Origin: a virus
Direction: 5' to 3' (one strand)
IMG/VR virus record: IMGVR_UViG_3300043313_000264
Span: 1-26,408 of that record
Length of the DNA: 26,408 nucleotides
In this document: positions 973-19,077 of the stretch, piece by piece
How the letters are laid out: every line of letters starts with the position of its first letter
How positions within the stretch are numbered: position 1 is the stretch's first letter
Made by a program: the position numbers and the translations under genes
Notes under the pieces: model-generated
What the model saw: only the letters and a program-made list of their open reading frames with translations
Database searches by the model: none
What the model was told of the DNA's origin: nothing

Positions 973-991
973 ATTGGATCGTAGATCCAAT
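973..991. terminator. Perfect hairpin at the end of the 57-aa gene
   Basis: ATTGGATC-GTA-GATCCAAT, an 8-bp perfect stem with a 3-base loop. It begins inside the stop codon of the leftward 57-residue gene and lies about 15 bases before the strong SD of the coiled-coil gene. There is no T-run, so it is not a classical intrinsic terminator. A transcript-processing or attenuation site, or a DNA operator, are alternatives. Confidence 0.4.
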
Positions 992-1164
992 CAGTGCGCC
1001 GGACGTTGGGTGATGTTGGCCAGGATGCGCCGCTCGTTCTCCGAGCGGTATACGGGGAGTGTGGCCCAGAGGTGCGCGTGGCGCTCCTCTGCGGCGTCTA
1101 GGCACTCATCGGCCCAGTGTTGCGCGTGGTTGAGTCCGACTCGTGAGCAGCGATAGCGGGTCAT
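991..1164 (-). CDS. Small hypothetical protein (57 aa)
   Basis: Leftward frame from ATG at 1164 to TGA at 991-993, product beginning MTRYRCSRVGLNHAQHW. The start has a modest SD (AAGGGA about 7 bases upstream) and lies behind a promoter with a perfect TTGACA. The protein is rich in His, Arg, Trp and acidic residues and mostly helical by composition, with two Cys (residues 6 and 21) and several His. No family is recognised. Evidence for it being real is its position between promoter and next gene, and the snug hairpin at its stop codon. It could also be a leader peptide. Confidence 0.55.
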   Translation of the reverse strand: MTRYRCSRVGLNHAQHWADECLDAAEERHAHLWATLPVYRSENERRILANITQRPAH

Positions 1165-1191: not shown

Positions 1192-1221
1192 GGTCTACGA
1201 CCAGCCTAGCAGGCTTGTCAA
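1192..1221 (-). promoter_or_regulatory. Leftward promoter with internal palindrome
   Basis: Minus strand TTGACA (1221 to 1216, perfect consensus), 18-base spacer, TAGACC (1197 to 1192). The spacer holds an inverted repeat AGCCT-AGC-AGGCT (1203-1215), placed as a repressor operator would be. It would drive the three leftward genes. Confidence 0.45.
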
Positions 1222-1243: not shown

Positions 1244-1268
1244 AGTGCTTGCTCGTGCCTCGCGCGCG

Positions 1269-1342
1269 TGGAGCGCTTGCTGTCTGCTTGCAATAGCTAG
1301 CTATCCAACATGAGACAGACTAGTCTCATTAGTAGCGCTCCA
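1269..1342 (+). other. Three-way junction at the 5' end of the tract
   Basis: A 9-bp perfect closing stem (TGGAGCGCT with AGCGCTCCA) encloses the 12-base palindrome ATAGCTAGCTAT (1293-1304) and the 7-bp stem ATGAGAC/GTCTCAT (1310-1316/1323-1329). Nested, not overlapping, pairings of this kind are hard to get by chance and point to RNA folding more than to DNA operators. Confidence 0.45.
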
Positions 1343-1431
1343 CTTGCGCTTATTAGTTGGCATTGCCAACGATATAAGTAATATACTACTTATTACAGTG
1401 CATATAGGTACAAAAGCTTTTGTTTGGTGTG

Positions 1432-1455
1432 GTTCACGCGCAGCTGCGCGTGAAC
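1432..1455. repeat. 24-base perfect palindrome
   Basis: The two 12-base arms are exact reverse complements with the centre at AGCT, beginning GTTCACGCG. It is GC-rich, unlike its AT-rich surroundings, and is separated by a single base from the next 10-bp hairpin at 1457-1481. As RNA it gives a 10-bp stem with a four-base loop; as DNA it is a symmetric binding site for a dimeric protein. Confidence 0.6.
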
Positions 1456-1589
1456 GGAGCCCATACAATAAGTATGGGCTCACAGTTGGTCACGCCACGT
1501 TTGACCCCGGCATGTTAACGTGGCGTGGGTAAAGCTTGTACATAGCCCCTCAAAAATATCTGAGAAGGGGTCTATGTCCAAGCTACTTA

Positions 1590-1634
1590 TGTAAGGACAA
1601 AGTCCATCTCCAGGATGGACTTTGTAAGGACAAA
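1590..1634. repeat. Two direct repeats flanking a 12-bp hairpin
   Basis: TGTAAGGACAAA occurs at 1590-1601 and again at 1623-1634, 33 bases apart. The repeats overlap the arms of a 12-bp perfect stem (1597-1608/1614-1625), so the second copy could replace the first in an alternative pairing. A similar short pair, GTAACGATT, lies at 1726-1734 and 1737-1745. Confidence 0.5.
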
Positions 1635-1771
1635 CATCTTCCTGAGTGGCAGGAAGGTGACATAGGGAGACTCGTAGAGTCTCAAGTAGAACTTTAGACA
1701 TACCTGCCCATAAGGGGCAGGTTATGTAACGATTAGGTAACGATTTGGTTACGTTTCTCTGCGTGTCCGTT

Positions 1772-1799
1772 TTGTCCGGTGAGTTTAGACCGCTATTAT
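1772..1799 (+). promoter_or_regulatory. Candidate late promoter for the terminase operon
   Basis: TTGTCC at 1772-1777, 16-base spacer, TATTAT at 1794-1799 (5 of 6 to TATAAT). A start near 1806 would give the terminase transcript a leader of about 275 bases containing the hairpins at 1806, 1867, 1935, 1959, 1988 and 2046. It is the best sigma70-like match on the plus strand ahead of the terminase. Confidence 0.4.
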
Positions 1800-1934
1800 A
1801 AGTGAGAAGAACTTTAGTTCTTCGAACGTTCTAAGAGCGAGGAACGAGCGAAGTGAGTACGTAAGAGGAGCAACGAAGTTGCTCCGAATAGTAAGACGTA
1901 CGAACAAGCGAGGTTTCCGAGCGATAAGATAACA

Positions 1935-1978
1935 GCCCTGCTCTTGGGGAGCAGGGCAAAAAGCTTTAAGAAGCTTTT
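1935..1978 (+). terminator. Paired hairpins, terminator-like but without T-run
   Basis: GCCCTGCTC/GAGCAGGGC (9 bp) is followed at once by AAAAGCTT/AAGCTTTT (8 bp). GCGATAAG at 1921-1928 can pair with 1983-1990 to enclose both, at the cost of three bases of the next stem (1988-1996). The first stem has terminator strength, but no T-run follows on either strand, so attenuation or a structured leader is more likely than termination. Confidence 0.3.
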
Positions 1979-2080
1979 ATAGCTTATCGCGCTTTCCTAT
2001 GAAAGCGCGTCAGAGATTCATAGTTTTTAACAAGAGTACTGGAACAGTACCCTTGAAGGGTACTATCTCGGAGGTCTTGG

Positions 2081-4039
2081 ATGCCTGGCGGACGCCCACC
2101 CAGTAGAGCCGAGTCCAGGAAGCCTGACGGTACTCGATATAAGAATACTCAAGTGCCTGGACGAGGCGGTGTGAATCTCGCTCGGCCGACGTCGCTGAAA
2201 GCGATCGGGAAGGTTGACGCTCAGAACTTGGTCCTCGGCTATCTAGCCGACGGTATGAAGGTCTCCGATGCGATGAAACTGGTATATCGCACCGAAGGTA
2301 CCTATAATGCCTGGATGGGGCATGACAAGGACTTCAAGAACCGCGTAGGTGCTATTCGCACTGCCGCTCGGGAGCGGAAGGCCATCAAAGGCCCGGATAA
2401 GGTTGTAGTTCCAGATTTCGAGGAGTTTTGCGATAAGTGGCTTAAGCAGCCATTATATCCGCATCAATTGCGGATGCTTGATGTAGTTGAAGGTCGGGAA
2501 CCGAGGGATTTGCATCCCTCGATGGACTATCTGCAGGGTTATCCGCAGCGTGTGATCATCAACGTTCCTCCGGAGCATGCGAAGACCACCACCTTCAGCG
2601 TCAATTACAGCGTCTGGATGATCCACAAGAACCCTGACATCCGCATTGTGATCATGTCTCAGGGTAAAACCCTGGCCCAGCGTATGCTTGGCGAGATCAA
2701 GTTCAAGCTTATGTCCCCGGTTTACCGGGAAATGCATATGCGTTTCGCCCCTGAGGGCGGATGGAAAGACCCTGACAACTCGTGGACCGCTGACGCGATC
2801 TACGTGGAGGGTAAAGGCGGGGATAAGGACCCCACCGTACAGGCTTTGGGCCTCGGTGGGCAGATTTACGGCTCCAGGGCCGACGTCATCTGGATGGATG
2901 ACACGATTACCACCAAGAATTGTCGTGAATTAGACCGCCAGATGATCCTCCTGGAGCGGGAAATCGAGTCCAGACTTCCGTCAGATCAGGAAGGTGGCGG
3001 GTTACTGTGCCTTATCGGTACCCGAGTGTCTCCTCATGACCTCTATAGAACGCTCATGGATGTTGAGGATGCTGACGGAGATAGAGTATGGACATATTTC
3101 CGCCAACCCGCTGTACTGGACTATGGAAACGGCGACTCTTCAGACTGGCATACTCTGTGGCCAGAGAAGTGGAATGGGAAGTCACTTTCCCGTCGCCGTA
3201 GAGGCGTCGCGTGGAACCTCATCTACCAGCAGTTGAACGTTGACGATGAGATGACCTTCAAAGTTGAGGCTGTAGATGCCTCCATCAACGGCCTTAGGTT
3301 CCCCGGACCGATGTCTGGTGACGGCCGTGGGGACCGCAAGGGTGGCATGGAAGGCCTTTACGTCATCGGTGGTCTTGATCCGGCCACGGTTGGCGCTACT
3401 GCCATGATAGTTGTCGGCCTCGACAAGGAGACTGGTAAGCGTTGGGTGTTGGACGGCTTCAACAAGCAGAACACTCTGCCTGAAACCATGCGTAACAAGG
3501 TGAAGTATCTGACCGAAACCTACCACATCAACGAATGGGTCATCGAATCTAACGCCTTCCAAAAGTTCCTGACCCAGGATAGAGACCTAACCCAGTTCCT
3601 ACGGGCGCAGGGTTGCCGTCTAACCCCGCACACAACCTCTGAGAATAAGTATGATGCCGAGTTCGGCATCCAAACCATGGGTCCGATCTTCAATTCTTGT
3701 GGACGTCCGGACGAGAAGCTGCCCTCCGGGCAGTGGAGGCGGAACATTCACACCGCGTTGATTGACCTTCCGAGCATGAGACAGAACCCCTGGGTGAGCG
3801 AACTGGTCCAGGAGCTTACCTCCTGGCAGCCCGAGGGCATGTCTAGGCGTCAAAAGACCGACCTTGTCATGGCCTTATGGTTCACCCACATCGCCTGCCA
3901 GCGCATCATGCAACGCAAGAGTAACAACAAGAGCCACCACTCGTATTCACCGTTCCTAACACCGTCTGCTAAGGGGCGTCAGTTGGTTGTGGACCTAGCC
4001 GCCTTGCGGCGTGAGAAGACTTTGGAGAGTGTTGGATGA
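2081..4039 (+). CDS. terL: Terminase large subunit with N-terminal HTH
   Basis: DNA-packaging motor ATPase and headful/cos nuclease; it docks on the portal and pumps DNA into the prohead. 652 residues. ATG at 2081 has GGAGGT 5 bases upstream. ATPase half: Walker A-like PPEHAKTTT (residues 163-171), Walker B DVIWMDD (268-274), and a C-motif-like LIGTR (311-315). The RNase H-like nuclease half starts at GGLDPATVG (430-438), with the Asp at 433 a likely metal ligand. Residues about 44-95 form a helical segment with VSDAMKLVYRTEGTYNAWM, which resembles the DNA-binding HTH of small terminases. No separate small terminase is seen downstream, so this may be a fusion. The stop overlaps the portal start (ATGA). 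It is preceded by the long hairpin tract. Confidence 0.92.
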   Translation: MPGGRPPSRAESRKPDGTRYKNTQVPGRGGVNLARPTSLKAIGKVDAQNLVLGYLADGMKVSDAMKLVYRTEGTYNAWMGHDKDFKNRVGAIRTAARERKAIKGPDKVVVPDFEEFCDKWLKQPLYPHQLRMLDVVEGREPRDLHPSMDYLQGYPQRVIINVPPEHAKTTTFSVNYSVWMIHKNPDIRIVIMSQGKTLAQRMLGEIKFKLMSPVYREMHMRFAPEGGWKDPDNSWTADAIYVEGKGGDKDPTVQALGLGGQIYGSRADVIWMDDTITTKNCRELDRQMILLEREIESRLPSDQEGGGLLCLIGTRVSPHDLYRTLMDVEDADGDRVWTYFRQPAVLDYGNGDSSDWHTLWPEKWNGKSLSRRRRGVAWNLIYQQLNVDDEMTFKVEAVDASINGLRFPGPMSGDGRGDRKGGMEGLYVIGGLDPATVGATAMIVVGLDKETGKRWVLDGFNKQNTLPETMRNKVKYLTETYHINEWVIESNAFQKFLTQDRDLTQFLRAQGCRLTPHTTSENKYDAEFGIQTMGPIFNSCGRPDEKLPSGQWRRNIHTALIDLPSMRQNPWVSELVQELTSWQPEGMSRRQKTDLVMALWFTHIACQRIMQRKSNNKSHHSYSPFLTPSAKGRQLVVDLAALRREKTLESVG

Positions 4040-7813: not shown

Positions 7814-8281
7814 ATGGCAAGTGGTGGCTACCGGGCTCCCGGCAAGCCCAACGTTGTCAGCGGTCCCGGCAAGTTTTCTAAGCGCACAGATGGGGGCGCA
7901 GCGCAGGTTTTGAGCGCTGCTCCTGATCAGCCTTACGGGGCCGTCAAGCAACAGTTGGACTCACAGCGTATTGCACCTATGGGTGCGGCTACCCCTTTGC
8001 CTCCTGTACCGCAGGCTGGCGCTCCAGGAGCCCAGCAGGCCCCTCAGATGCCCCAGTACAATGGCCCTGGCATCGGCGACCCGTCACAACGCCCCGACGA
8101 ACCTGTGACCGCTGGGGCTGACGCCGGACCAGGGCCGGGCTCTGAGGTTCTGCAAGGTCCCCAGATGAATCCGTCTACCGGAACCGGGGCCATGACCGAT
8201 CTGCTTACCCGCATGTCTGCTAGCGACACCAGCGGCGTGCTGGGTCAGCTTCTTCTAGCGGCTCAGGCGCACGGCGTATGA
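7814..8281 (+). CDS. Pro/Gly/Gln-rich minor structural protein (155 aa)
   Basis: Begins MASGGYRAPGKPN and continues with SGPGKFSKRTDGG. I recall this opening from small structural proteins of actinobacterial phages placed before their largest virion protein, which is one reason to suspect an actinobacterial host. The middle (about 50-130) is low complexity (Pro, Gly, Gln, Ala); the last 25 residues (TDLLTRMSASDTSGVLGQLL) form an amphipathic helix. Its TGA overlaps the ATG of the 1840-residue gene, so the two are translationally coupled and their products may interact. Function unknown. Confidence 0.7.
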   Translation: MASGGYRAPGKPNVVSGPGKFSKRTDGGAAQVLSAAPDQPYGAVKQQLDSQRIAPMGAATPLPPVPQAGAPGAQQAPQMPQYNGPGIGDPSQRPDEPVTAGADAGPGPGSEVLQGPQMNPSTGTGAMTDLLTRMSASDTSGVLGQLLLAAQAHGV

Positions 8282-11200
8282 CGTATTCGACTACGCCGCA
8301 AGGCGGCCCCGACCTTAACAAGATTCCGCTAAAAGCGGAACAGCAAGCATTGTCCGAGATGCATTCCATGTTGTTCGGAACCAAAATGCTGCAGAGTAAT
8401 CCTGGCGTCGTGTGGGCTCTGCAGCAGCAGAAAGCTCACCCGGCTGATTCGCAAGCCATCGACCAATTCATGCAAGCCTTGGATGCGGAGAAGCAAGTCC
8501 GGCTAGCCGGGGCCGGTGGTCAGAAGATCCAGCTGGACGACAATCAGACCGGGATGCTGGATCAGATGGGCGTCAATTATAAGGACGTTCAACTAACTCA
8601 GCAGGATGCCGTTACCGCGACTCAGAATAATGTCACACAACAGACCCAGGGTACGCAGAAAGCTAAGGTTAACGCTGACGGTTCCATAGCCACGGATAAA
8701 GACGGTAATGTCGTTCTCGAACCAGTGGAAGCGAGCTTACTTCCGTCGCATTCCGGTAGTCTATTTGGCCACATCATCCACGACTTGAATAACTGGGTTG
8801 TCAAGGACACTATCGGCGGGGCTTACCGTGATGTGATTAAGCCTGTCCTTTCTGCCGCTGGCAAGGGCTTCAACTATATCACGACTTCCATCTCCCAGCA
8901 GTCCGCAAACGCCGGGATAGCTTCACAGAACTTCGGTCAGCCTGCTATCGTCGGTGCGGTGTCGAATGAGGGTGGCACTGAGCGGGATATGCAGGCCCTC
9001 GGTTACGATCCGAATTCGTTTTGGTCTCGGCAGGCATATCAGGCTTCAGGTAAGGCTCACACCAACACTCAGGGTTTAGAGGATCAATGGGATACCGCGA
9101 ATCCTAGTGGACTGTTTGGCTGGAACGGCCAGCAGGCCGTTAGCAATGCAGTCCGTTTTTTGAACGATCCGGCCGAATATCAGAAAACGATTGAGAACGA
9201 TCCGCACCTTACCCCTCAGCAAGTAGCCGCCCAGTTGAAGCAGCTTAACTCTCCCCAGTTTCAGACCCTGACTCGGCAGGTTGTGGGGAACAGCGCCAAC
9301 CTGGGCACGGACATTGCCAAGAACGTTTTCCGCATTGACCCCGTTAACCATCCGAAGGTTTTCGCCCTATCGGCAGCCGCAGCCAACCTTGCTTCCGCTT
9401 TTCTAATCGACCCTCTAATGCTTGCTGGTGCTGGCTTCAACGTCGCCCGCTTCTCCAGGGTTGGACTTGACACCGCTCTTGACTCGGAACAGGCTGCCGC
9501 CCATCTTGATCCTGCCGCGCAGGCTGTTCGTGCTGAGACTCTTCCCGCGACCACTCCCGCCGAGATTGCCACCAAGGAGCACGCTACTGCCGTTGCTACC
9601 GCTCAGGCGAGGCAGGGCGGTGTTCTTAACAAGGCGTTCCTTTCGCCGCTACAGCGGCGCTATCAGGACTTCATCGACACTAGTCATGAGATGGCCGCTA
9701 AAAGCGCCCAGGGCGATACGGCTGGCGCTGCTGCCCTTCAGGGCAAGATTAGTGCTCAGTTTAAAGAACTATCGCCGCTTATCCCCGACGTTCTCGGGAA
9801 GAATCAGATTGTAGGGTTCAGCGAGCGCGGTCCGATCCTCGGAGAGGGCGAAGGTATCCACACTCTCGGCGATATGGCTAACTATATCGCCTCTAAGGGA
9901 GCATTTGTCCGACTTGTGAGCGGTCGGGCAGCGGTGCAGTCGCGTCTTACTCCCGGTGCCACAAGCGGTCTTGGTTTACGTTGGTTCAAGGGCAATGTAA
10001 GCCAGTGGATGACGGCGCGTTCAGCCGCAAGACAAGAGAACATGTACGACAAGGTCATCTCTGCCGCAGAGGCTGACCCCGAGCGTGCCACTCCTCTGAT
10101 CAACGCTGGTTTCTTTACGCGTGTGCAGCCGGAAGCTAACGATGCTATCGGGTTGAACGATGAGATCATAGCGACCCCGGCTCAGGAACTGTCCACCGAG
10201 GGTGACATGATCACCCAGTACCGCCCGGCGTTGGATTATATTTCCCACGACGCGAATGTCACTGATGGTGGCCAGCTTGCACTTACACCTGCCGGCAAGG
10301 GCGCGGTTGCTTTTGCTCAGCGTGTCGGTGGCAAGCCCCTAGGGGACCTTGAGGTTGGCTTCTCCAGACCCGCTGCTATTGCGGCGCGTGCCCGCCTGAG
10401 GGCGCAGCGTTTGTCAACACTGTTGCCACGTAACACGCTGCTTGACCTTAACGACGTCGGCAACGTGTCGTCGGACAAGGTTTTCAACATCGCCATGTAC
10501 TACATGAACCGTGGCGACGCCAACGCGTTGCGCATGGCGTATAACCTTGGTGATGGCGGTCAGCGTAAAGCGGTTATCAGTGGTCTCATTGACCAGATGG
10601 GTCATTCTGCCGGTCTCGGCAAGTCTGTAACCGGCCAGCATATTCTGGACACGTTGAAGACTTCTCACGAGGCTTACAACACGGCTGGCGACGAGATACT
10701 TCTTAATGGCGAGGCTGTTGCTCAGCACGCTGGACAGACTAATGACAAGTGGCTTCTCCCTGGTTTCCGGGAAATTCAGCAAGTAGCCGCCAGGATAACC
10801 ATAGGCGAGAAAACGTTTGGCCGTGCCTTCACTTCGGACCAAGCTGATAACTTAATGGGTCAGTGGAAAATGGGCGCGCTGTTCAAGCCGAGCACCGTTA
10901 CCCGTAACCAGCTGGAAGGCTGGTTGCGTACCACCCTTGAAGGCAAGCTTGGGCCTTCCCTTCAAGCTAAAGCTTTTGCCACGCAGACGAACCGTGAGCT
11001 ATGGGCGCGGGGCCTCTCCTTGGACACTAAGGCAGAGTATGAGCGTCTGCTAGCTGGCGGGGAGACAGAGAGGGCCGCGAAGCTGGCCAAGGGTCAGTAT
11101 CTTTCCGGGCAGAATCTCGGTCGATCCACTCCGTTACAACGAATGACCGAGTTCGCTCCATTAGCTCTAGCGGGCCGTGCGTATCGTCAGGCAGTCGGTA

Positions 11201-13800
11201 GAACCATGAGCGATGCAATGGTTACCGCTCTAGGCACTCTTCCTAAAGAGGACCTAGAGCAGGCCATGCGTGGCTATAGCCAGCAGATGACCGAGGATGC
11301 TTTAGGTTATCGGAACGCTGCAGGGTGGTCTCAAAAGGTTGTAGCTGATGGGCTCTCGCCCATGCTGACGAAGTATCAGCCTGCCACGCTGCGTGGGTCT
11401 CTTCACGAGGCGAAGGCGAAGGGAATGGCGGTTGCCGAGAAGAAGGCGAAGAAGGCAACCGTTTGGACCCAACAGGATGCTGACAGTACCATCGGTGCTG
11501 ACCGCTTTTCGAACGCGCTTCACTCTCGCGTCGATAAAACTCCAGGTGTTGCGGAAGCAGCTTTCAAGATTCTAGAAGACCCGGAGAATTACAGTATTTC
11601 GCACCTTGTGGAAGCGATGGATGATCCGACTATTCGGTCCAAGATGCAGCTTACCAGCTGGGGTCACGTCTGGTCGCCCAACAATGACATTAACTTTGTC
11701 CGGACCGAAGATCCGGCAGAGATTGCTGTAGGCAAGACACAGTTTGCGACTAAGGTTCTCAACGACTACCGCCATCTGTTTACCCAGCAGGACGGCAATC
11801 TTTCCGCCAAGCTTATCAAGCAGACGCGCGACCTTGGCCGAGCCCCTGACGGTGACTGGATTGCCCAGAATCTTAAGAACGCGGAGCGCCCGCATGGTGT
11901 GCTCGCCCCCGAGGTCACGGCTACATCACCAGACGGTCAAGATGTCCGCTCGGTTGTAGGTACCATTCAAGATCTAGAGGGTGGCGCATATCAGTGGATG
12001 GTTGAGCGTCCTTTGCAGCGCACTACTTCCGCTCCTATCTTTATGGCTAACTACGCCGAGGCTCGGGTGGGTCTTAATTCTGCAGTCGAGAATATGGTTA
12101 GTCAGGGCGTTGGCCGTGAAGCGGCTAATGAGTTGGCTAAAGAAACGGCGATCAAAAACGCTTGGGTGAAGACCGAGACGATGATTGACGACCCTGGCCA
12201 AAAGAGCCAGTTTGACATCGTCGCTCGTAACTTCTTCCCGTTCAGTCGTGCTACTACTGCCATGATTCGCCGCTGGGGCGGCGGTATCTACCGTGACCCT
12301 GCGCAGGCTCGGCAGATGATGCTGGCTTACGAGGGTGCACAGCACGCGGGATTGGTTTATACCAATCAGTACGGCGAGCCCACTTACGTGTACCCAGGCT
12401 CGGGTGCAATGAACGCCATGATGCGAGGCATCTCCGAACTGCCAGGCATGGGGAACTTGGCTAAGTTTCCGATCAGTGCCAGTATGACCGGTGGCGTACT
12501 TATGTCCGTCCCTGGGGCTGACAACCCACTGCGGATTTCCGCTGGTCCGATGATTATGGTTCCGTTGCGAGAACTGTCCAATCTTCTTCCCGGTGACCAA
12601 AAGATTCTTTTTAACGAGGTTGACTCCGCAATTAACGGTCCGATCGGGGTGGGTTCCACCGGCAGCGCTCTTTTACCAGCCATGTTCAAGAAGTTCTACA
12701 CCAACATGAACACCGACGAGCGTAACTCAGCTATGGCCAGTTCCACTGTCGGCGCTATGGCTAATCTTGCCGCAGCGGGGATGGTCCCGCCCAAGGATGC
12801 CGACAACGCAACACTGGAAGCGTGGCGTCGTAACGTGCAGGCGCAGACCAGAAATCAGCTTTTCCTCCGAGCAGTTTTTGGTTTGTTTGCTCCGGCTGCA
12901 CCCTCAACGCCGAGCGAGGGAACCTCGGCCTCGGGTTCAGACTACAGTTTTCAGGTGCGCGGCATCAAGCAGCTTTCGGAAGAATACAAATCGCTGCTGA
13001 ATGATGTCAATGGTAACGTTGCCAGAGCGAGTGCTATCTGGGCTGCACTGCACCCCGAGAAGACTGTGTACGAGATTTCGGGTAGCCGTTCCACCGCGTC
13101 TAAGGTTAGCTTACCGAGCACGGATGCAGCACTGGCGTGGATGATTGACAATAAGGGTTTCATCCAGCATTACGGAAACGTGGCATCCTACTTCCTGCCC
13201 ATGCCGAAAGGTAACGAGCCGTTCAGTGAGCAGGCTTACCGGGCGCAGATCGAGCTAGGCTTGAGAGAGAAGAAGACTCCCGACGACTTCATGCAGGACA
13301 TCTACATCCGCGATGCCGAGTCTACCTTCTACCCGTGGGTTGCAGCTTACAACACCAAGATTCAAGCCGCTAAAGCTGCCGGTGATACCGAGACAGAGAA
13401 TGCGTGGAGTGACGCCAAGTCCAAGTGGGAGGCTCAGTTCAAGCAGCAGAACCCACTATTCGGTAACAAGCTGGATAGCTACGGTGACGCTCGCGCCTTG
13501 GCGCGCGCGCAGCTGCAGAATCTAACCGCCATGGTGGCAGCCAATCAAGTTCCAAACGGTGAAGGTAAGCTGGTTGATAACCTAATCAAGACCTACACCA
13601 ATTATGAGAACTATATCGGCTCTATTCCTGGGCAGACCCAGGACGACCGCGACGCCAAGACGTCAGCCTTGCAGATGTTCAATTCGTGGGCTGAGAAAAA
13701 TATAGCCGGGACGGATCTGGTCGACTTGTACAACGGAGTGTTCCGAGTGCTGAATACTAATATCGAGGACTTAAATAAGCTGCCGGGAGGTACCCAATGA
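8278..13800 (+). CDS. Giant internal virion (ejection) protein, 1840 aa
   Basis: The largest gene of the window. Gln-, Ala- and Asn-rich, mostly helical, without a signal peptide. The first 120 residues are very Gln-rich; a segment around 165-205 (GGAYRDVIKPVLSAAGKG) and a hydrophobic helix around 361-382 (ANLASAFLIDPLMLAGAG) could insert in a membrane. Around residue 1318 NFFPFSRATTAMIRRWGG begins a better conserved-looking C-terminal part of several hundred residues with Gly/Pro/Met-rich turns. Proteins of this size in short-tailed phages (T7 gp16, N4 virion RNA polymerase) travel with the DNA into the cell. I see no lysozyme, polymerase or nuclease motif here, and wall hydrolysis appears to be delegated to the separate genes at 14708 and 16108. 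ATGA overlaps at both ends. Confidence 0.7.
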   Translation: MTYSTTPQGGPDLNKIPLKAEQQALSEMHSMLFGTKMLQSNPGVVWALQQQKAHPADSQAIDQFMQALDAEKQVRLAGAGGQKIQLDDNQTGMLDQMGVNYKDVQLTQQDAVTATQNNVTQQTQGTQKAKVNADGSIATDKDGNVVLEPVEASLLPSHSGSLFGHIIHDLNNWVVKDTIGGAYRDVIKPVLSAAGKGFNYITTSISQQSANAGIASQNFGQPAIVGAVSNEGGTERDMQALGYDPNSFWSRQAYQASGKAHTNTQGLEDQWDTANPSGLFGWNGQQAVSNAVRFLNDPAEYQKTIENDPHLTPQQVAAQLKQLNSPQFQTLTRQVVGNSANLGTDIAKNVFRIDPVNHPKVFALSAAAANLASAFLIDPLMLAGAGFNVARFSRVGLDTALDSEQAAAHLDPAAQAVRAETLPATTPAEIATKEHATAVATAQARQGGVLNKAFLSPLQRRYQDFIDTSHEMAAKSAQGDTAGAAALQGKISAQFKELSPLIPDVLGKNQIVGFSERGPILGEGEGIHTLGDMANYIASKGAFVRLVSGRAAVQSRLTPGATSGLGLRWFKGNVSQWMTARSAARQENMYDKVISAAEADPERATPLINAGFFTRVQPEANDAIGLNDEIIATPAQELSTEGDMITQYRPALDYISHDANVTDGGQLALTPAGKGAVAFAQRVGGKPLGDLEVGFSRPAAIAARARLRAQRLSTLLPRNTLLDLNDVGNVSSDKVFNIAMYYMNRGDANALRMAYNLGDGGQRKAVISGLIDQMGHSAGLGKSVTGQHILDTLKTSHEAYNTAGDEILLNGEAVAQHAGQTNDKWLLPGFREIQQVAARITIGEKTFGRAFTSDQADNLMGQWKMGALFKPSTVTRNQLEGWLRTTLEGKLGPSLQAKAFATQTNRELWARGLSLDTKAEYERLLAGGETERAAKLAKGQYLSGQNLGRSTPLQRMTEFAPLALAGRAYRQAVGRTMSDAMVTALGTLPKEDLEQAMRGYSQQMTEDALGYRNAAGWSQKVVADGLSPMLTKYQPATLRGSLHEAKAKGMAVAEKKAKKATVWTQQDADSTIGADRFSNALHSRVDKTPGVAEAAFKILEDPENYSISHLVEAMDDPTIRSKMQLTSWGHVWSPNNDINFVRTEDPAEIAVGKTQFATKVLNDYRHLFTQQDGNLSAKLIKQTRDLGRAPDGDWIAQNLKNAERPHGVLAPEVTATSPDGQDVRSVVGTIQDLEGGAYQWMVERPLQRTTSAPIFMANYAEARVGLNSAVENMVSQGVGREAANELAKETAIKNAWVKTETMIDDPGQKSQFDIVARNFFPFSRATTAMIRRWGGGIYRDPAQARQMMLAYEGAQHAGLVYTNQYGEPTYVYPGSGAMNAMMRGISELPGMGNLAKFPISASMTGGVLMSVPGADNPLRISAGPMIMVPLRELSNLLPGDQKILFNEVDSAINGPIGVGSTGSALLPAMFKKFYTNMNTDERNSAMASSTVGAMANLAAAGMVPPKDADNATLEAWRRNVQAQTRNQLFLRAVFGLFAPAAPSTPSEGTSASGSDYSFQVRGIKQLSEEYKSLLNDVNGNVARASAIWAALHPEKTVYEISGSRSTASKVSLPSTDAALAWMIDNKGFIQHYGNVASYFLPMPKGNEPFSEQAYRAQIELGLREKKTPDDFMQDIYIRDAESTFYPWVAAYNTKIQAAKAAGDTETENAWSDAKSKWEAQFKQQNPLFGNKLDSYGDARALARAQLQNLTAMVAANQVPNGEGKLVDNLIKTYTNYENYIGSIPGQTQDDRDAKTSALQMFNSWAEKNIAGTDLVDLYNGVFRVLNTNIEDLNKLPGGTQ

Positions 13801-16107: not shown

Positions 16108-17499
16108 ATGGCTTCCTATGCTAACCCCATCGGGCGGGGACTCTATTCCCAACGTATCGACCAGGGTGTCGACTACGGTGGTAGCGGTGCGCTGTATGCG
16201 CTGGGTGCTGGTGTAATCACCAGCGTCTATAACAGTGGCTGGCCTGGCGGCGCTTACATTGTACTTCATCTAGATAACGGTAAAGACGTATTCTACGCTG
16301 AAGATATTACCCCGCACGTTCGCGTAGGCCAGAGAGTTTCAGCGGGGCAGCAAGTCGGATTTGCTACAGGCGGCGGAGATGGAATCGAAGTAGGCTGGGC
16401 ATCCGGTAGCGGTGGCATGACAATGGCCAGAGCCCACGGGCAAACGGCTGCCGGATCAGCGCATGGTGATCCAGGTCTATACACCACCGCGTATGGTGCA
16501 AGCTTCTCTAACTTGATTGCATCTCTCGGCGGTCCGGCTGGTAAGGTCTATGGCCCGGTGCAAGGTAACGTTCCTACTGGTTACGCCGCACCGGGAGGAA
16601 CCCCGGTATCTGCTTCCAGGGGGGCTGGACCGAATCCCACTCCGAACGATTACCAGACAGCCCTTGGTTCCCTCAGCGGAATTCTCCAGTCAGTACCGGA
16701 GCTACGTAGCATTCTACAAAAAGCTGTCTCTGGGGGATGGGCTGTCTCAAAGTTTCAGCAAGCCGTTCAGGCGAGTCATTGGTATCGTACTAACAACGCG
16801 GGCACGCGTGAGCTAATAGCGTTAGCTTCCTCTGACCCTGCCGAGTTTCGTACACGTCTAGCCAACTCGTCTAATATGGTTTCCCAGCTTGCCGGTCAAC
16901 TGGGAGTTAGATTAAATCCTGGTCAGTTAAGTGGTTTGGCTCATCAGTTCTTGATGAATGGCTGGACTACGCAGACCCTTCAACACCAGCTGGCCGGATA
17001 TTACAACGTGAAGCAACAGCCAACTGGACAGGCTGCTCAGATTTACCAGCAGCTGGCCGGAGTGTATGGAGATTATGGAGTTCCTTATAACTTTGCCACA
17101 TTGCAACACCGCACTCAGCTAATACTGGCGGGGAACACGACTGCAGATACTTATAAGCAAAACGCTATTAATACAGCGAAGAGTATTTATCCAGGTATTG
17201 CGGGACAAATAGATCAAGGTATCACCGTTCGACAGATTGCTGATCCCTATGTTTCAACTCAGGCTAATCTACTGGAGCTAGACCCGAAGAGTATTAACTT
17301 CGGGGCTGATGCCGGTATTAGGAGAGCCTTGCAGGGTCAGCCCAACGCGCAGGGAGTCAAGGTGGCAACACCGTTGTGGCAATACGAGCAGCAGGTGCGT
17401 AGTGACCCGCGCTGGCAGTTCACCAATAACTCGCGCGATATGACGTCTCAGGCTTTGGTCCAATTGGGCGCTGATTTCGGCTTCGGACCGAAAGGCTAA
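16108..17499 (+). CDS. M23-like domain protein with shared C-terminal module
   Basis: 463 residues. Residues 5-110 have the beta-rich lysostaphin/M23 fold signature: RIDQGVDYGGSGALYALG (16-33), YIVLHLDNG (50-58), FYAEDITPHVRVGQRVSAGQ (62-81), GIEVGWASG (92-100). The zinc-binding histidines of active M23 peptidases are absent: the first His is Asp18, YAH is YAE and the HxH position reads IEVG. It may therefore only bind the wall or use an acid-based chemistry. After a linker (about 155-180) comes the same 280-residue module as in the previous gene, with long identical runs, including the last 30 residues. Likely an exchangeable wall-binding partner of the lysozyme on the same virion part. Confidence 0.75.
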   Translation: MASYANPIGRGLYSQRIDQGVDYGGSGALYALGAGVITSVYNSGWPGGAYIVLHLDNGKDVFYAEDITPHVRVGQRVSAGQQVGFATGGGDGIEVGWASGSGGMTMARAHGQTAAGSAHGDPGLYTTAYGASFSNLIASLGGPAGKVYGPVQGNVPTGYAAPGGTPVSASRGAGPNPTPNDYQTALGSLSGILQSVPELRSILQKAVSGGWAVSKFQQAVQASHWYRTNNAGTRELIALASSDPAEFRTRLANSSNMVSQLAGQLGVRLNPGQLSGLAHQFLMNGWTTQTLQHQLAGYYNVKQQPTGQAAQIYQQLAGVYGDYGVPYNFATLQHRTQLILAGNTTADTYKQNAINTAKSIYPGIAGQIDQGITVRQIADPYVSTQANLLELDPKSINFGADAGIRRALQGQPNAQGVKVATPLWQYEQQVRSDPRWQFTNNSRDMTSQALVQLGADFGFGPKG

Positions 17500-17501
17500 C
17501 T

Positions 17502-18611
17502 ATGACTTCCCGTTGGATTCGCGACTCGCGTGGTAAATTTTATTACGTTAACGAGAATACCGGAACGTCTCGACCGGCGACCGCTAAGGATATTGCGAGT
17601 CTTGCCCGGACGAAAAACTGGACTGGGTTTAGGGGCGTTTATAAGCCGGGCGCGGCCATTGGTAATTATAACTACTATGCGCTGGATTCAACTAGTGGCG
17701 CAATGTATGGTGTCACGTCGCAAGGTGCCTATACTCATCTGACTCCTGCGCAGTGGGCGCAGGTGTCCTGGCCTGGCTATAAGAAGTATTCGTTCAACCC
17801 TCAACAGCAGTCATCGTTACAACTTATCTCTGACACTTTGAGGCAGTGGGGACTCTCTAGTCTTGACGACACTCTCCGTGGGCTTCTTGTAAAAGGTGAT
17901 ACAAACCCGGATACGCTCGCTCTAGCGTTGTCTCAGACTCCCGCCTACAAGGCCCGCTTCGCCGGAAACGCAGGGAGAGTGGCGAATGGACTACCCGAGC
18001 TTTCGCCAGCACAGTATCTTGCCACCGAAGAATCTTACAACCAGATTCTACGGGGTTATGGCCTTCCCCCAGGCTTCTATGATAGTCATTCTGACTTCAC
18101 TAACTTCATCGCCAATGACCTCAGTCCAGCCGAACTGGACGCTAGAGCTAAAATTGCCCACGACCAGTATATGAATGCTCCGGACTATGTCAAGAACTTA
18201 TGGAGTCAATACTTTGGCACCAAGGGTGACGCTATCGCTGCCATTCTTGATCCTAAGGTTGCGACCGCGTTGATTCAGGATCGCGGCACGCAGGTTGCCA
18301 TCGGCGGTGCTGCGGCAGCGCGTGGCATGAGCGTAAGCGCACAGCGCGCTCTGCAGCTGCAGCAAGCTGGCGTGAGCGGTACGCAGGCTGAGCAGGGTTA
18401 CTCGAAGATTGCGCAGTCTCTACCAACCGACGAGGCTATTGCACAGCGGTTCGGCACCAAGTTCGGACAGACTCAGGAAGAGAATGACTTACTACTAGGT
18501 CTCGGTCCTGAAGCTCGGCAGCGGGAAACGCTATACGCCGAGGAAGAGGGATTGTTCAAGGGTCGGTCTGGTGCAGACGCCCAGGCTGCCGGCGTTCCTA
18601 GTAATTACTAA
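17502..18611 (+). CDS. Third, divergent member of the module family (369 aa)
   Basis: ATG 2 bases after the previous stop. The N terminus (about 1-90) is a small, aromatic-rich beta domain beginning MTSRWIRDSRGKFYYVNENT and including YNYYALDSTSGAMYGV; I cannot assign it. From about residue 100 the helical part follows the outline of the shared module (an LALALSQTPAYKARF stretch matching SKFQQAVEQSHWYRSNN, then SPAQYLATEE and SPAELDARA) but at low identity. The C-terminal third is Ala/Gln-rich (TQVAIGGAAAARGMSVSAQ). No lysozyme or M23 head. Placed at the end of the internal-protein block, so probably a structural anchor or ejection protein. Confidence 0.6.
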   Translation: MTSRWIRDSRGKFYYVNENTGTSRPATAKDIASLARTKNWTGFRGVYKPGAAIGNYNYYALDSTSGAMYGVTSQGAYTHLTPAQWAQVSWPGYKKYSFNPQQQSSLQLISDTLRQWGLSSLDDTLRGLLVKGDTNPDTLALALSQTPAYKARFAGNAGRVANGLPELSPAQYLATEESYNQILRGYGLPPGFYDSHSDFTNFIANDLSPAELDARAKIAHDQYMNAPDYVKNLWSQYFGTKGDAIAAILDPKVATALIQDRGTQVAIGGAAAARGMSVSAQRALQLQQAGVSGTQAEQGYSKIAQSLPTDEAIAQRFGTKFGQTQEENDLLLGLGPEARQRETLYAEEEGLFKGRSGADAQAAGVPSNY

Positions 18612-18879: not shown

Positions 18880-18950
18880 TCTGGGTTCGTTTAACGGTAG
18901 GACGCCGCGCTCTGGACGCGGTAATCGAAGTTCGAATCTTTGACCCAGAG
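18880..18950 (+). tRNA. tRNA-Gln (anticodon CUG)
   Basis: Complete 71-base cloverleaf. Acceptor TCTGGGT (18880-18886) pairs without mismatch with ACCCAGA (18943-18949), discriminator G at 18950. D-arm GTTT/GGAC (18889-18892/18900-18903) with GG in the loop. Anticodon stem CCGCG/CGCGG (18905-18909/18917-18921) with loop CTCTGGA, anticodon CTG at 18912-18914. Variable region TAAT. T-arm CGAAG/CTTTG around TTCGAAT (18931-18937). CCA is not encoded. U1-A72 and G73 are glutamine identity features in bacteria. The tRNA lies in the middle of Gln-rich virion genes that by eye use CAG very often, so it may supplement late translation. Confidence 0.93.
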
Positions 18951-19077
18951 CCGACGACGGGAACGACCGGTCCTGTCGAGCGTAACTAAAACCGGGAATC
19001 CTTAGATCGTGCTGACCTACCTCCGGGGATGCACTGGCTAGGGTAACTGTCCATCGGCAGCCAATAAAGGAGAGAAA
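18951..19077 (+). promoter_or_regulatory. Leader of the scaffold gene, 127 bases
   Basis: No gene. CCGGT and ACCGG (around 18970 and 19000) could form a weak stem. It ends in a strong SD (AAAGGAGAG) before ATG 19078. It may hold a processing site that frees the tRNA 3' end. No clear promoter or second tRNA was found. Confidence 0.3.

Follow-up and report, generated by a model that had tools for sequence, protein, structure and literature searches.

The window, meaning the whole stretch of viral DNA analysed (26,408 bases), contains a series of inverted repeats, all unlike in sequence, at approximately 1262-2064, flanked on the left by the start codon of an ORF read leftward and on the right by the TerL gene, read rightward (Table 1). 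No convincing gene was found within this tract, in agreement with the preliminary description of a gene-free stretch between divergent genes. In locus L002, the closest of the distinct relatives, a TTGACA occupies a position comparable to that of the putative hexamer of the leftward operon; the -10 sequence is poor. Folded as plus-strand RNA, 1200-2080 reached -382.7 kcal/mol, whereas shuffled sequences averaged -269.4 (z -18.0), and the minus strand gave z -14.0; none of 20 shuffles folded as well for either strand. When the whole window was folded in 120-nt tiles, nearly all strongly structured tiles fell in the tract. Perfect hairpins that do not overlap, with stems of 7 bp or more and loops of 3-8 nt, number 14 within 1310-2064 (approximately 0.75 kb) out of 41 in the whole 26.4 kb window. 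The density of palindromes reported previously is therefore real, while the reported number, more than 20 inverted repeats, is somewhat high and comes down to these 14 perfect hairpins plus a few longer-span stems. The stems differ in sequence, as had been noted, and the tract holds just short two-copy direct repeats rather than a CRISPR- or TIGR-type array. A terminator scan gave no run of terminators, and there is no second copy of the tract within the window. The nested stem (previously given as 1269-1342) was recovered, as were alternative pairing partners at 1590-1634 and 1921-1990. What had been treated as a single unit is, however, split by a promoter-like block at 1772-1806. Our best explanation, to which we give about an even chance, reads the tract as a divergent control region with a right third that differs from its left part.

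Table 1. Features of the tract and its flanks (window coordinates).
Feature	Position	Strand	Remarks
First ORF of leftward operon	991-1164	-	57 aa, without family
TTGACA, -35-like hexamer of leftward operon	1214-1219	-	Putative, read from sequence
Nested stem	1262-1349		Outer arms 1262-1277 / 1334-1349, inner hairpin 1310-1329
Inverted repeat ATAAGTAATATACTACTTAT	1374-1393		
12-bp palindrome	1432-1455		One compensatory pair vs L002
10-bp hairpin	1457-1481		One compensatory pair vs L002
11-bp hairpin	1491-1527		Arms identical in L002; loop holds most of conserved element
Conserved element TTGACCCCGGCATGTTA	1502-1518	+	Family TTGACCCGGGGTTGTTA
Stem AGCTTGTACATAGCCCC / GGGTCTATGTCCAAGCT	1533-1584		Pairing retained in L002, 3' arm rebuilt
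12-bp hairpin	1597-1625		Alternative partners via direct repeat TGTAAGGACAAA (1590-1601, 1623-1634)
10-bp hairpin	1635-1659		One G-U pair on plus strand
7-bp hairpin	1667-1683		
8-bp hairpin	1702-1722		Two compensatory pairs vs L002, outermost pair lost
GTAACGA / GTAACGA / GGTTACG repeats 5' of promoter	1726-1753	+	Candidate operator or activator site
Late promoter candidate	1772-1806	+	TTGTCC, 16 nt, TATTAT, AAGTGAG; family motif ACCCCGCTATATAAGTGAG
5' leader of late transcript, hairpin string	1806-2080	+	z -7.7; putative RNA, from position
Leader hairpin 1	1806-1823	+	8 bp
Leader hairpin 2	1867-1885	+	Conserved in L002
Outer stem GCGATAAG / CTTATCGC	1921-1990	+	Encloses leader hairpins 3 and 4
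Leader hairpin 3	1935-1957	+	9 bp; L002 counterpart with compensatory pair
Leader hairpin 4	1959-1978	+	8 bp
Leader hairpin 5	1988-2009	+	9 bp
Leader hairpins 6 / 6'	2031-2064	+	Mutually exclusive (2031-2055 or 2046-2064)
Shine-Dalgarno GGAGGT of TerL	2070-2075	+	From sequence
TerL, first gene of late operon	2081-4039	+	Family matches

We compared the tract with the regions upstream of related TerL genes. A TerL search of viral contigs yielded 10 loci, or 80 when an alignment was used, and genomes added 4. L002 encodes a TerL 94% identical to that of the window on a 47,787-base contig, which is circular in the assembly since its ends overlap by 127 bases; a scan for the conserved stretch beginning GTTACGTTTCTCTGCG matched L002 alone. 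The L002 genome (L101) encodes a WhiB-type transcription factor (17475-17819, minus strand), which points to an actinobacterial host. The cultivated relatives are Streptomyces phages of the Beephvirinae, with a TerL identity of approximately 37%. The regions upstream of TerL had z of about -7 to -15 in L004, L005, L006 and L008 and approximately -5.6 in L009; a Lentzea contig (L090, 41%), one of the 4 loci from the genome collection, had a weaker leader.

The promoter-like block at 1772-1806, whose TATTATAAGTGAG block ends at 1806, is identical in L002, and the motifs aligned across the family read ACCCCGCTATATAAGTGAGAGGG or variants. We scanned the 900 nt upstream of TerL in 47 distinct loci for TATA followed after 0-5 nt by RTGRG. 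The motif was present on the plus strand in 20 of the 47 loci, where its frequency elsewhere in the same loci would predict 0.2, and on the minus strand in one; in this strict form it was absent from the scanned 900 nt in more than half of the loci. In 50-nt steps downstream of the motif, hairpin density was 6, 18, 12, 10 and 10 per kb, compared with mostly 0-6 per kb upstream (one bin reached 8), and this profile was little altered when the window was left out. Aligned instead on TerL, the 47 loci showed a peak of 8 hairpins per kb at 100-300 nt 5' of the gene, against approximately 1-2 in genes. The window itself carries both marks of this group, a plus-strand TATA..RTGRG block beginning 284 nt 5' of TerL and an excess of hairpins before that gene. 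Scanning the viral collection with the promoter motif alone gave 59 matches, mostly due to chance, and those with at least three hairpins downstream were all already known TerL relatives. From its position and conservation, we infer that block 1772-1806 is a promoter.

A rightward late transcript would start at this phage-type promoter, leaving 1806-2080 untranslated. Because the motif is conserved and hairpins rise directly downstream of it, we consider it likely that the late transcript, for terminase, portal and head genes, carries this interval as its untranslated 5' leader. Across 25 loci the mean z was -6.5 for the leader and -2.4 for the region upstream; promoter positions for this comparison were picked by eye, with the regular-expression test above as an independent check, whose hits differed from the picks in L017, L084 and L090. 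The hairpins of the window leader are short and unlike one another, with 8-9 bp stems and 3-6 nt loops. Among relatives their number ranges from 2 to 7 and the stems average 8.7 bp. A second hairpin leader was observed elsewhere in the L002 genome (L101 4356-4480, minus strand), where a promoter-like TAGTATATATATCTC is followed by hairpins, a Shine-Dalgarno sequence and a short leftward ORF.

Pairing in these leaders appears to be under selection. The late-operon upstream regions of the Beephvirinae phages Manuel, Immanuel3 and FlowerPower occupy the homologous position before TerL, and have hairpins with compensatory changes and a promoter-like block of TATA type that includes GTGAG or ATGGGG; their records carry no feature annotation for these leaders. 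Beephvirinae hairpin A kept 8 of 8 pairs in all nine phage entries, with two-sided changes in 5 pairs. In hairpin B, 92.9% of cells were paired and 10 two-sided changes were found, values that none of 500 shuffles reached on either measure, and the signal was abolished by sliding the register by 1-3 columns. Where hairpins can be aligned between the window and L002, whether upstream or downstream of the promoter, they retain pairing through compensatory changes, for example from GTTCACGCGC/GCGCGTGAAC to GTTCTCGCGC/GCGCGAGAAC and from GAGCCCATAC/GTATGGGCTC to GAGCCAATAC/GTATTGGCTC. The leader hairpins are nevertheless largely replaced by hairpins of other sequence in L002 despite the 94% TerL identity, which suggests that structure rather than sequence is selected. 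The covariation anticipated among relatives is thus clear in the two Beephvirinae leader hairpins and does not extend to a fold common to the relatives. We found no description of such leaders in the open-access literature, so that earlier accounts may exist elsewhere.

The preliminary description noted extra G-U pairs on the plus strand alone. We could not sustain this as a cue to strand: relative to shuffles the leader folded equally on each strand (z -7.7), as nearly did the upstream half (-11.7 and -12.2), and stem mismatches in the leaders of 23 loci were balanced, with 6 G-T and 4 A-C, so a plus-strand G-U excess is no evidence of strand. Pairwise substitution counts were set aside for this purpose, as many pairs were misaligned. 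What speaks for a leader RNA is instead its position behind the motif. Since the hairpins start just past the promoter-like motif and covary in the Beephvirinae, 1806-2080 is probably RNA. The structured-RNA reading is supported as selected pairing in the late region, and not supported as a discrete RNA of 0.8 kb.

A single noncoding RNA of approximately 0.7-0.8 kb covering the whole tract, as a new class resembling GOLLD and ROOL, would fit the length, density of structure and phage setting. Like these RNAs, whose structures are available (PMC12286853), the tract is large, highly structured and set in a phage or mobile context. The pair TTGGCA-16-TAATAT at 1357-1384 is weakly promoter-like, has a similar counterpart at the aligned position in L002 and would suit such an RNA; because of it, the upstream half may yet be transcribed. 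However, Rfam gave no match at the gathering threshold in the window and none beyond chance at E <= 10 in 1100-2200, so that the proposed search for GOLLD, ROOL, OLE and HEARO left all of these families unmatched; in the window, tract and 18 relatives together the sole hit was one tRNA. Unlike GOLLD and ROOL, the tract has no long-range fold conserved among relatives, its hairpins being largely replaced and variable in number, and it contains a promoter-like block that is conserved separately; the upstream half is unstructured in most relatives, and in these the feature behaves as an mRNA leader. We regard a discrete large RNA as very unlikely. A high density of hairpins upstream of a terminase is not in itself a sign of a giant noncoding RNA.

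The location of the tract directly 5' of TerL, where no small terminase subunit was recognised, had also invited comparison with packaging RNA. In phi29-type phages, pRNA forms an RNA ring with a packaging ATPase that lacks a nuclease domain. The likeness ends at a candidate structured RNA beside packaging genes: the TerL of the window matches ordinary large terminases and carries its own nuclease domain, Terminase_6C, and the hairpins have no conserved fold and vary freely in sequence and number (2 to 7). For these reasons a packaging RNA comparable to pRNA is extremely improbable.

The left part of the tract (1262-1722) would be promoter-upstream DNA carrying, in the same lineage, more palindromes together with a conserved cis element of its own. 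The region 5' of the promoter is as structured as the leader in the window and L002 (z about -12 in both); z is approximately -6 in L028 and L047 and near chance in most of the 25 loci. At the place of the nested stem 1262-1349, L002 has hairpins of different sequence. The conserved element TTGACCCGGGGTTGTTA was found on the plus strand in 17 of 47 loci (the window and 16 others) and on the minus strand in none, with 0.5 expected, usually 230-490 nt 5' of the promoter motif. The sequence TAAATTTC often lies approximately 50 nt after it. The element may be a cosB-like or other cis site, and a packaging-site role is possible because Beephvirinae genome records start approximately 240 nt to its left. 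The Abafar record (PP750865.1) lacks the first 9 bases present at the start of its sister genomes, possibly because a cohesive end was dropped by the assembly.

These observations bear on whether the palindromes act as DNA, in a cos or pac site or a replication origin, as cruciforms or as protein sites. Such a role suits 1262-1722 best, where folding is strong on both strands alike, stems are kept by compensation relative to L002, and the element is conserved on one strand only, upstream of the promoter and near the genome start of the Beephvirinae. In most relatives, however, hairpin density sits downstream of the promoter motif and not around the element. As a DNA function does not predict this distribution, it is disfavoured for the leader, and we think it unlikely as an account of the tract.

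For the leader, we propose that hairpin formation itself protects the late transcript. Long untranslated leaders are exposed to Rho and RNases. A hairpin chain would cover several hundred untranslated nucleotides, leaving Rho and single-strand RNases little hold; the covered leader would let polymerase reach the long late operon and late mRNA persist. Such shielding fits the turnover of hairpin sequence, since a chain of short stems needs no given sequence, and the stems, averaging 8.7 bp, are shorter than usual RNase III substrates. Avoidance of Rho in particular is not favoured, because unpaired leader bases were just slightly poorer in C (0.217 vs 0.242 in shuffles) and the longest unpaired run was no shorter (14 vs 13). 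Nor is a long hairpin string essential, as the Beephvirinae have just two hairpins. That the hairpins shield late mRNA, where untranslated, against both Rho and RNases is accordingly a tentative suggestion, which we hold at somewhat less than even confidence. On the explanation as a whole, a hairpin-string late leader behind a promoter with shielding included, our judgement is evenly divided.

The main rival of shielding appears to be PUT-like antitermination, in which the leader hairpins would make polymerase ignore terminators in the late operon. The PUT RNA of HK022 acts directly on RNA polymerase, and lambda nut acts via a bound phage protein; both consist, like the hairpins here, of stem-loops that directly follow the promoter of a long phage operon in its untranslated leader. 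In the leaders most loops are closed by C-G and many have the form CTNA(A), and the Beephvirinae leaders, which have approximately two hairpins, hold strongly conserved blocks (CTCGGGATCATTCCTCCG and AGCCGCACGGCG / AGCCGCACGGCGTTTGAGTTGC); these blocks are absent from the window. However, PUT and boxB are not known to turn over between close relatives as these hairpins do, and the leaders, with up to seven hairpins, share no sequence or fixed fold; we saw no stem-loop sequence common to them. The L002 genes that were scanned included none recognisable as an antitermination gene. Antitermination is thus improbable in our view, and we retain shielding as the preferred reading of the hairpin string.

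It is possible, although doubtful, that phage late leaders selected for forming hairpins as such, whatever their sequence, are widespread in actinobacterial hosts. If so, they would be a generic structural device by which host polymerase continues through RNA that is not translated and along a long late operon, owing to resistance to Rho or to decay. To our knowledge, late gene control is poorly known in most actinobacterial phages. The motif and leader offer a testable entry to the late start site, the sigma-like factor or activator that drives it, and protection by hairpins, and the cultivated Streptomyces relatives allow such tests now.

Candidates for the regulators can be named. The repeats at 1726-1753 are nearly identical in L002, and their 20-base pattern is present in 53 viral stretches. 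They include a 31-nt match to Gordonia phages of the Deejayvirinae, in a different setting and in some records inside an annotated small gene; beyond it, annotated phages gave no other DNA homologue of the tract. Manuel gp31 (L114 35702-36388) is a sigma-like protein (Sigma70_r4_2, 4.5e-5) with a 24% identical homologue in L002 (L101 12223-12837), and these two proteins could recognise the late promoter. In Stella, the annotated hypothetical gene gp1 (OP751154.1 350-520) overlaps the leader and the late promoter motif at 394, and is probably not a real gene. The late operon of the window encodes a protein of 1840 aa (8278-13800) with no Pfam match, and the late region has a single tRNA-Gln (CTG) at 18880-18952, at a place similar to that of a cluster of 19 tRNA genes in Manuel.
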